Shown in pieces: positions 16,288 to 20,990 of a DNA stretch of 64,000 bases. The DNA is taken from contig NC_020134.1 of the NCBI RefSeq assembly GCF_000331995.1, positions 1,339,465-1,403,464 of the forward strand, in the 5' to 3' direction. How positions within the stretch are numbered: the stretch's first letter is position 1; each line of letters starts with the position of its first letter. Below the pieces are notes generated by a model. It was not told where the DNA came from. It ran no database searches and was given only the letters and a program-made list of their open reading frames with translations. This DNA comes from Thermoclostridium stercorarium subsp. stercorarium DSM 8532. GTDB lineage: Bacteria > Bacillota > Clostridia > DSM-8532. A program made the position numbers and the translations under genes.

Positions 16288-16770
16288 TTACCAATCTTTA
16301 AAATATTCTCCGAATCTTTTCGTCAGCAGCATAAGAAGCGGATAACCAAGAGCATAGCATGCCAGCAGCTCTCCAAGTCCTACCCAGCCCATACATGCAA
16401 GCAGCGGGGTGTCCTTAAAATACAGGAAATGTAAATAACCGCCCACAATTACGGCGTTAAATATAACAGGCGGAAGAGGAACAAGCCATGGATATTTTCT
16501 CAATTGCCTTGAAAAAATGGCAGCTATGAGTGTAGTGAGGCTGCCGAAAATTATATCTATCGGTCCGTAACCTCCTATAATATTTGAAACAAGACACCCG
16601 ACAAATAAACCCGGTATTGCTGAAGACATCACGGCTGGAAGCACTGTCATGGCTTCTGAAACGCGGAACTGAAATATGCCATAAGCGTAAGGCGCAACCA
16701 GAACGGTTACGACTGTGTAAATTGCGGCAATCAATGCCGCTCTGGCAATGTACAAGACTTTGTTGTTCAT
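16288..16770 (-). CDS. queT: QueT-family queuosine precursor transporter
   Basis: 160 residues, almost all hydrophobic, with about five or six membrane spans. It has the QueT (COG4708) features YGIFQFRVSEAMTVLP, GLFVGCLVSNIIGGYG and a conserved LGELLACYALGYPLL near the end. QueT is the substrate-binding S component of an ECF-type importer for preQ0/preQ1. The shared ECF energising genes are not in this window. The leader upstream looks like a preQ1 riboswitch, which supports the substrate. Transcribed alone. Confidence 0.87.
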   Translation of the reverse strand: MNNKVLYIARAALIAAIYTVVTVLVAPYAYGIFQFRVSEAMTVLPAVMSSAIPGLFVGCLVSNIIGGYGPIDIIFGSLTTLIAAIFSRQLRKYPWLVPLPPVIFNAVIVGGYLHFLYFKDTPLLACMGWVGLGELLACYALGYPLLMLLTKRFGEYFKDW

Positions 16771-16779
16771 AATAAAAAA

Positions 16780-16840
16780 CCTCCGTAGTTTTGTTTTGGC
16801 ACCATAAATGGGTGCCGCCCAGGATTTTGCGAACTGGACA
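16780..16840 (-). promoter_or_regulatory. Candidate preQ1-I-like riboswitch upstream of queT
   Basis: On the minus strand GTCCAG (16839-16834) and CTGGGC (16822-16817) form a 6-bp P1 stem around an 11-nt loop starting UUCGCA, as in preQ1 class I aptamers. After P1 comes an extra hairpin (GGCACC, 7-nt loop, GGUGCC), then an A-rich tail AAAACAAAACUA that runs into the GGAGG ribosome site of queT. Loop bases UCC could pair with the tail GGA, making the pseudoknot and hiding the ribosome site. The extra hairpin is atypical. Confidence 0.5.
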
Positions 16841-16848
16841 TGATATAT

Positions 16849-16877
16849 ATGCTACCATTTTAATCTGGTATTATCAA
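16849..16877 (-). promoter_or_regulatory. Promoter for queT
   Basis: On the minus strand TTGATA and TAGCAT are spaced by 17 bp. They place the transcription start just upstream of the candidate riboswitch. Confidence 0.5.
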
Positions 16878-16968: not shown

Positions 16969-17514
16969 ATGAACAGGAAAAGGGCGTTTGACGAATTAAA
17001 AGCAAGGCTGTCCGATGAGAAAAAAATACGGCACAGTCTGGCGGTGGAAGCCATTATGAGGGAACTGGCAGAGTTCTTGCATGAAGAAACCGAGGCTTGG
17101 GGGCTTACAGGGCTTCTTCATGACATTGATCTGGATATTGTAGAAGGGGATTTGGAAAAACACGGCCTGGTGGCTGCAGATATTCTGGAAGGCCTTAGTG
17201 TTGATCCCGCAATAATTTATTCCATCAAGTCCCACAATCCAAAGCTGGGGTTTCCGAGAAGGAGAAAGGTGGATAAGGCACTGTACTGCAGCGATCATTT
17301 GCCCCGCTTTATTGAAAAATGCGCTTCAGCCATTCCTGGCAGAAGTATTTCCGACCTGACAGTGGGTTATCTTATAAAAAAATTTAACGAAGAAGGATTT
17401 ATAAATAGGGAACATAAGGAACAGATATCAACATGTAATGAACTTGGCCTGTCGCTGGAGAAATTTTTCGAGATAGGCCTTAATGCGATGAAAAATATTA
17501 AATATGATATATAA
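16969..17514 (+). CDS. HD-domain protein (predicted metal-dependent phosphohydrolase)
   Basis: 181 residues from the ATG at 16969, which follows GGGGGGAT. The HD motif GLLHDIDLD lies near residue 48, with an upstream conserved RHSLAVEAIMRELA helix (first His) and KALYCSDHL (downstream Asp) near 100. It belongs to the small stand-alone HDIG-type hydrolases. The substrate is unknown, most likely a nucleotide. Confidence 0.8.
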   Translation: MNRKRAFDELKARLSDEKKIRHSLAVEAIMRELAEFLHEETEAWGLTGLLHDIDLDIVEGDLEKHGLVAADILEGLSVDPAIIYSIKSHNPKLGFPRRRKVDKALYCSDHLPRFIEKCASAIPGRSISDLTVGYLIKKFNEEGFINREHKEQISTCNELGLSLEKFFEIGLNAMKNIKYDI

Positions 17515-20312: not shown

Positions 20313-20726
20313 GTTTAGAAGCGAATTGAATGTTAATTAAGTTGTTTACCTTTTGCCTACTATAGATATAATTTTGCAAAACTTTTAAGGTTGGTATTAT
20401 ATTAATAACAGCTGAAAGAGATCTAATCCGGAGTTTTCAGCCACACCATAAGATGTTGCGGCTATTGTTTACAGAAATAAATTCAAATTCATGCTGCGAC
20501 AAGTTAAAAATACCCCGGGCGTTATTCATTTATAAGCATAAATTGAAATAGAAAAAATATATGGTAAATTGATTTATGGAATAATTCTGTCGATGGCCAG
20601 TAGCTTATAAAAGCAAGGGATCGGCAGATGTAAAAATCGAGCAGTATCAAATATTTACGGGTTTTAATGCTTAAAAACTTGTAAACTGCAATTTTATAAA
20701 AGCGGCTTTTTATGCCAGGTTTTAGG
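20313..20726 (+). other. AT-rich stretch without a supported gene
   Basis: About 410 bp between the tRNA terminator and the CRISPR remnant. I see no coding region with a ribosome site and no clear RNA. In this repeat orientation the CRISPR leader would lie here, but I cannot define one. Confidence 0.5.
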
Positions 20727-20990
20727 GTTTGAAGTTTACCTATAAGGAATTGAAACTCACCGTTTTTAGCGAAGGCTTGTCTTTCCAAAAAAGATTTAAG
20801 TTTACCTGTAAGGAATTAAAACAATCCTAGCTGGCCATATTCATTATATCCACAACGGTTTTAAAGTTTACCTATAAGGATTGAAAGGTGCGAAAGTAAC
20901 GCCTGACGCCGGCGGCGGTTGGTTAGAAGTTTTTACCTGCAAAGATTGAAATGCCCTATGTTTTTGAGTTTACCTATGAGGAGTTGAAAC
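20727..20990 (+). CRISPR. Degenerate orphan CRISPR array (five decayed repeats)
   Basis: Five imperfect repeats of 30-31 nt at 20727-20756, 20793-20822, 20858-20887, about 20921-20951 and 20960-20990. Each holds the core AGTTTACCTATAAGG (with variations) and ends in a form of ATTGAAAC, the 3' end of type I-B-like clostridial repeats. The first three spacers are 36, 35 and about 33 nt. Only 8 nt separate the last two repeats, so part of the array has been lost. Every repeat differs from the others, which active arrays do not show. No cas gene is in the window. Confidence 0.72.

Follow-up and report, generated by a model that had tools for sequence, protein, structure and literature searches.

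Architecture of the queT leader

The window analyzed here is a stretch of 64,000 nucleotides from Thermoclostridium stercorarium subsp. stercorarium DSM 8532 (contig NC_020134.1, positions 1,339,465 to 1,403,464), and coordinates below are positions within it. Its minus strand carries queT (16288..16770, start codon at 16770-16768), which encodes a queuosine-precursor transporter of 160 amino acids; the match to PF06177 (E 2.4e-45) agrees with the identity proposed for this gene in the first-pass annotation. An HD-domain gene on the plus strand (16970-17514) runs divergently from queT across a shared short intergenic region.

Reading the minus-strand sequence of the queT leader reveals an element at 16780-16839, extending from a first helix, P1, to the Shine-Dalgarno sequence. 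The 5' strand of P1, GUCCAG (16834..16839), and its 3' strand, CUGGGC (16817..16822), enclose an 11-nt aptamer loop, UUCGCAAAAUC (16823..16833), which is near-invariant in 27 leaders of the same family; the outer P1 pairs covary in relatives. Flush against P1 stands an inserted hairpin composed of a 5' arm GGCACC (16811..16816), a loop CAUUUAU (16804..16810) that is unconserved among the family leaders, and a 3' arm GGUGCC (16798..16803), with covariation between the arms. Next come the 9-nt A-rich segment L3, AAAACAAAA (16789..16797), and CUAC, the 3' strand of the expected helix P2 (16785..16788; CUA at 16788-16786, C at 16785). The Shine-Dalgarno sequence GGAGG (16780..16784) lies directly 3' of CUAC, and CUACGGAGG ends 9 nt upstream of the queT start codon. 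The first-pass annotation had described a 6-bp P1, a loop, an A-rich tail running into GGAGG and an extra hairpin, and every one of these parts is as it stated. Its span of 16780-16877 contains the element at 16780-16839, and its upper limit also takes in the promoter.

The promoter-like sequence, TTGATA-17-TAGCAT with a TG before the second hexamer, occupies 16849..16877 on the minus strand. A scan of the region found two such sites vs. 1.8 expected, so support for this one comes not from the scan but from the sister leaders L001, L007, and L028, in which TTGATA...TAnnAT recurs at equal spacing. A transcript from this site would begin a few bases before P1.

Both P1 and the hairpin are present in the minimum-energy fold of the leader (z = -2.0), although an equally good fold is reached by 9 of 200 shuffled sequences, so that energy alone says little. 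The combination of a 6-bp P1 around UUCGCANNNUC and, within 70 nt, a following AAAACUANGG has a single occurrence in the window and none in 200 shuffles of it by two-base blocks. It is conservation and covariation in relatives that settle that the element is beyond chance.

Elsewhere in the window (20725-20982), four degenerate CRISPR-like repeat copies with spacings of 66, 66, and 102 lie beside a tRNA cluster. One of the four is matched by the Rfam model CRISPR-DR2, and the group looks like a decayed array.

Conservation and covariation within the family

QueT is present in 30 of the 32 genomes of the window's family, and 27 of the 30 QueT leaders contain the full element in the order P1, UUCGCAAWAUC, P1', insert, AAACUACG. 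The exceptions are L022, which has no element, and L008 and L023, whose elements look decayed. The core is nearly invariant throughout the family, and the insert ranges from a 3-bp to a 17-bp stem.

Covariation was scored in two alignments. For 21 of the 27 family elements (alignment A1, which leaves out the long inserts of L002, L004, L005, L006, L010, and L024), 90.0% of the cells in the two stems are paired, and the covariation score is 0.369, compared to 0.155 for shuffles and at most 0.117 for slid registers. For 19 leaders from five families (alignment A3, comprising 13 of the 27 family elements and 6 of 7 from outside, with L117 left out), the score is 0.680 vs. 0.187 shuffled and at most 0.173 slid, and all six hairpin pairs have changed on both sides. 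The GGCACC/GGUGCC hairpin that had been proposed between P1 and the tail is real, and the aligned leaders conserve P1 and the loop, with the hairpin covarying. A mixed alignment of hairpin-bearing and hairpin-less forms (A2) was dropped because, in the short forms, MAFFT placed the bases of the P1 3' strand on the wrong side of the insert; no count given here depends on it.

Shuffle tests of the flush stem in individual sequences gave uneven results: many leaders taken singly are not significant (among them L006 0.90, L010 0.94, L025 0.82, and L003 0.54), chiefly where the flush stem is bulged or very short. As evidence for the flush stem, we relied on the pooled and between-sequence tests only.

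Proposed assignment to preQ1-I type I

In two published accounts, a type I preQ1-I aptamer is marked by a loop that opens with UU, next to the 5' strand of P1, and closes with UC, next to the 3' strand (PMC11625349), and by an A-rich L3 ending in CUA (PMC8752633). The window loop UUCGCAAAAUC has the UU and UC, and AAAACAAAACUA is an A-rich L3 running into CUA. GUCCAG/CUGGGC, covarying in relatives, corresponds to the type I P1 of 5–6 bp with a G-C pair on top, and the downstream gene, queT (PF06177), belongs to queuosine metabolism, as expected for genes under type I control. The roles of loop and tail positions are described in PMC8752633. Equivalents of U6, U7, C8, G9, C10, A11, A12, U16, C17, A30, C31, U32, and A33 (Can numbering) are all present, the last A of L3 being the equivalent of A30 and the CUA those of C31, U32, and A33, so that every nucleotide reported as a ligand contact in the type I preQ1-I crystal structure has its counterpart in the window element. 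This mapping to Can numbering was made in the present analysis, and the window loop is one base shorter (11 nt vs. 12 nt in the crystallized Can aptamer); leaders with the same 11-nt loop and no hairpin exist in other families. The loop and tail bases of P2 are the same as those making the contacts in the solved type I structure, but since they do not vary, P2 is without covariation support.

Type I aptamers are otherwise minimal H-type pseudoknots in which the tail follows directly after P1. In the window a 19-nt hairpin intervenes, and the element is for this reason a variant of type I and not a plain member. We consider it highly probable that the element is a preQ1-I type I aptamer carrying an inserted hairpin module at the P1/L3 turn, and we infer, by analogy with relatives, that this RNA binds preQ1. 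Riboswitch class specificity can shift with few changes, and given that the ligand is assigned by analogy, the element could instead sense another deazapurine or a different ligand, with the hairpin as the mark of a specificity change. This is very improbable in our judgment, given pocket bases equal to those of ordinary type I aptamers, a hairpin on the far end of P1 as seen from the pocket, and the same transporter genes downstream.

Searches with Rfam models recognize the core but not the hairpin-bearing form. No preQ1 model reached gathering level anywhere in the window, no Rfam model of any kind matched the leader at E 10, and the three preQ1 models named in the first-pass annotation (RF00522, RF01054, and RF02680) failed to match the element even at E=10. 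That annotation had treated the absence of any model match, if joined to an absence of conservation, as grounds against its reading; the former is what we found, and the latter clearly is not. RF00522 found nothing in the 2.97-Mb genome, and the Bacillus subtilis control was matched. Among the 17 hairpin-less relatives tested, RF00522 aligned to 11 (7/13 and 4/4) at 20.5–31.5 bits, below its curated gathering cut-off of 39 bits, in contrast to none of 58 hairpin-bearing loci (0/15 and 0/7 at E 10, 0/16 at E 1, and 0/20 at gathering level only). The short clostridial leaders thus tie the hairpin-bearing forms to RF00522 through the shared core. The suspected likeness to preQ1 class I holds on both counts: loop and tail fit type I, and the hairpin-less core is matched below cut-off by RF00522. 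The current Rfam model accordingly misses hairpin-bearing switches in many clostridial queT leaders.

Membership in preQ1-II or preQ1-III was considered because of the same gene and, as described in PMC11625349, a similar topology with a hairpin in the pseudoknot loop. It was rejected, and we give it practically no credence: RF01054 and RF02680 found nothing at E 10 in the window element or in 15 family loci, and every base of the core corresponds to class I type I.

Position and geometry of the hairpin

To describe how the hairpin sits, we used 143 distinct elements, 60 without a hairpin and 83 with one, a convenience set of what was fetched. The distance from P1 to CUA is 10 nt in 57 of the 60 hairpin-less elements (6, 8, and 11 nt in the others) and 17–58 nt in those with a hairpin; no element falls at 12–16 nt. 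In 77 of the 83 hairpin-bearing elements the basal stem has 3 bp or more, and in the remaining 6 the simple flush stem falls short of 3 bp. Within the 77, the stem starts flush with P1 in 68 and one base off in 9, and 8–10 nt are left between hairpin and CUA in 75. From these spacings, the hairpin is an insert at a single point, with the length of L3 kept minus about one base.

Pairing of the insert is far better within than between sequences. Stems average 5.43 bp with their own arms vs. 2.95 bp when 5' and 3' arms are swapped among sequences (at most 3.33 over 1000 swaps; 83 elements), and at every one of the first five stem positions at least five kinds of base pair occur. Sequence and length of the hairpin (3 to 17 bp) are free, and pairing is kept. 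At the base of P1, a G-C or C-G pair is found in 49/83 elements with a hairpin vs. 11/60 without (Fisher p 1e-6, ignoring kinship), an excess that fits stacking of the hairpin on P1, though it is confounded by ancestry.

One group within family f66 (L199, L203, L208, L211, L214, L217, and L220) has an inserted hairpin with a common apical YY-RAUA-RR, and several of its members precede terminator-like stems; elsewhere the hairpin sequence is free. The apical motif is a possible recognition site.

Distribution among Clostridia

With a model of the element (R1), matches were obtained in 27 of the 33 genomes of the order, in 60/391 genomes of the class, and in 15/398 genomes of the phylum. Of the class matches, 43 lie outside the family, 36 without the insert (40–42 nt) and 7 with it; the phylum search returned 14 besides the window's own, all short forms. 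Beyond the family, the element grades into ordinary 40–42-nt type I leaders that RF00522 weakly recognizes. In the order of genome G323, an insert-bearing pattern that covers 12-nt loops only was found in 7 of 28 genomes, namely 7/7 of genus g184 and 0/21 of the others.

A second model (R2) was trained on hairpin-bearing forms and is hence biased towards them. With it, hairpin-bearing forms made up 3/8 matches in f18 (16 genomes), 3/20 in f17 (38 genomes), and 49/112 in f66 (200 genomes), and among the matches listed for f41 (194 genomes) there was one, in G254. The f66 figure derives from 51 matches of at least 50 nt, of which L228 is hairpin-less and L230 is unrecognizable as an element. Genera g151 (f18) and g222 (f17) each contain both forms. 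The structural variant that had been suggested as possibly new is thus a variant of preQ1-I type I whose hairpin-bearing form recurs in relatives.

When hairpin presence is mapped onto a quickly built tree of 66 QueT proteins, at least 10 changes are required, and well-supported branches force 3. Transfer of leaders along with their genes could reduce the number of true origins. The 10 changes compare to 19.8 for shuffled labels, although near relatives alone make labels cluster.

These distributions bear on whether the hairpin matters at all. It could be neutral decoration of an ordinary type I switch, tolerated at the P1/L3 turn and persisting as a hairpin since the pseudoknot would be upset by an insert that does not pair. 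The unconstrained length (3 to 17 bp) and sequence agree with this, as does the fact that close genomes can be without a hairpin, and the RF00522 alignments show that the turn of ordinary members already takes 3–4 extra bases. Neutrality sits less easily with a hairpin that is fixed both in the window's family (27/27 intact elements) and, within a different family, in one genus (7/7), with pairing kept over very diverged sequences, and with the clustering of the hairpin label on the QueT tree. We regard it as a plausible but rather doubtful account.

Ten hairpin-bearing loci from other families were examined for gene context: six precede QueT, three precede Vut_1 (which we take to be the YhhQ-type family), and the remaining one lies before a frame that Pfam does not match. 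Among the matches listed for f41, the single element with a hairpin is L093 (G254:C1:1137200-1138300); instead of a transporter it precedes a frame that contains CIYKKCTFCDYY, has no Pfam match, and is perhaps a radical-SAM protein.

Some f66 leaders (L100, L101, L114, L222, and L236) have a 10-nt loop opening on a single U (UCGC...), and so are without one of the two U bases of type I. They may bind one ligand only.

Proposed mechanism

In the scheme that follows, sequence, pairing, position, conservation, and gene context come from the present analysis, and ligand, stoichiometry, and translational repression from the literature on relatives. P1 would form first. Upon preQ1 binding, the loop UUCGCAAAAUC and the tail CUAC(GG) would pair as P2, with L3 lying along the minor groove of P1; the ligand in type I is probably two stacked preQ1 molecules. 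GGAGG, directly after CUAC, would then lose accessibility, and queT translation would drop when preQ1 is plentiful. Translational repression is suggested by the placement of the Shine-Dalgarno sequence directly after CUAC with the start codon 9 nt on, and the Listeria monocytogenes queT type 1 switch binds two preQ1 and represses translation (PMC12519234). This simple masking scheme misfits 18 of the 27 family leaders, whose real Shine-Dalgarno sequence lies far downstream.

As for the source of the ligand, TGT is present in the genome, and the sole match to the QueC model is a 524-codon frame that we take to be GMP synthase. With TGT kept and no other QueC-model match, preQ1 is likely obtained by uptake, for which QueT would serve.

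The inserted hairpin, here called P3, would be a module added exactly at the turn between the P1 3' strand and the A-rich L3, on the P1 end that is remote from the pocket. It would stack flush on the open end of P1 or branch there, leaving L3 at its normal length and the pocket untouched, and might hold the P1/L3 turn and delay or steer closure of the pseudoknot. A hairpin with free sequence and length but preserved pairing points to action by shape and folding kinetics; that it tunes folding in this way, like P4 of class II, is a tentative proposal, to which we give somewhat less than an even chance.

The hairpin might alternatively be part of the expression platform, its co-transcriptional folding pausing the polymerase or setting the timing so that the aptamer samples preQ1 before the Shine-Dalgarno sequence or a terminator emerges. 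Since it lies between the halves of P2, it always forms before P2 can close, and it precedes Shine-Dalgarno sites and terminators alike (by a rough pattern count over the 83 elements, 65 Shine-Dalgarno/start, 15 terminator-like stem plus T run, and 11 both); one group also shares the apical YY-RAUA-RR, several of them with terminator-like stems. We nevertheless think this unlikely, as no U tract follows the hairpin in the window, no conserved alternative pairing of its arms was seen, and the arm sequence varies freely.

Relation to known riboswitches

Compared to preQ1-I type I (RF00522; Carnobacterium antarcticum and Listeria monocytogenes queT), the window element shares the G-C-ended P1, UU...UC loop, A-rich L3, and CUA tail, the Shine-Dalgarno sequence directly after the tail, and queT downstream. 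It differs in the hairpin between P1 and L3 (59 nt vs. about 41), in its 11-nt loop, which also occurs in hairpin-less relatives, and in being missed by RF00522. The closest parallel is P4 of preQ1 class II (RF01054), where an additional hairpin likewise separates the core helix from the 3' strand of the pseudoknot in a queT switch. P4 is orthogonal to the stack; its deletion barely alters binding, yet kinetics depend critically on it (PMC11625349). Class II has another core fold, pocket, and ligand-binding mode, and its hairpin is part of the class consensus, whereas that of the window is an optional add-on to class I. A PNAS study from 2013 reportedly addressed the extra stem-loop of preQ1-II.

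Class III (RF02680) is also found in clostridial queT leaders and is also a pseudoknot with further helices, but it measures about 100 nt, has another consensus, and pairs its P4 loop with the Shine-Dalgarno sequence, for which nothing in the window element speaks. Three-stemmed pseudoknots likewise have a third stem in the loop between stems 1 and 2, possibly coaxial; those in the consulted part of PMC11262651 are frameshift elements or other riboswitches, with no class I preQ1 case among them.

Within the titles and opening lines of abstracts covered in the literature, none describes an inserted hairpin in preQ1-I; the type I–III consensus of McCown 2014 is outside that scope. Subject to that consensus, the element, which combines a type I preQ1-I core with a third helix that is optional, is new as a variant. 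A broader reading, for which we see a nearly even chance, is that Clostridia hold a large, unlisted three-stemmed subtype of class I preQ1 riboswitches, in which the P1/L3 turn has repeatedly gained, and at times lost, a third helix that alters folding kinetics or dynamic range. If so, a minimal H-type pseudoknot has been converted to a class II-like topology, and nature provides pairs with and without the hairpin for testing why preQ1 switches keep acquiring one. PreQ1-I is the standard minimal riboswitch of folding studies, its single pseudoknot treated as about the smallest; here, dozens of versions carry one more helix, free in sequence and constant in position, beside versions without it, sometimes in the same genus. 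Why preQ1-II has an extra stem-loop, and how this stem-loop tunes switching, become directly testable in the best-characterized system.

A second pseudoknot in relatives

In the 18 family leaders mentioned above, which belong to genera g2 and g7 and not to the genus of the window, a compact H-type pseudoknot comes directly after CUACG, with S1 GAGY/RCUC, S2 CCGGY/RCCGG, and a short A-rich loop; next come a hairpin and only then the real Shine-Dalgarno sequence. Carriers are L002-L006, L010-L013, L015-L017, L019-L021, L026, L027, and L029; in L011 the structure is at L011:1414-1482. No Rfam model matched seven such loci at E 10. Its covariation score is 0.301 vs. 0.185 shuffled and at most 0.115 slid in 17 of the 18 leaders (alignment A4; L010 was left out, as its segment is identical to that of L006). 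This pseudoknot may serve those relatives as their expression platform, or it may be a second domain or tandem element.
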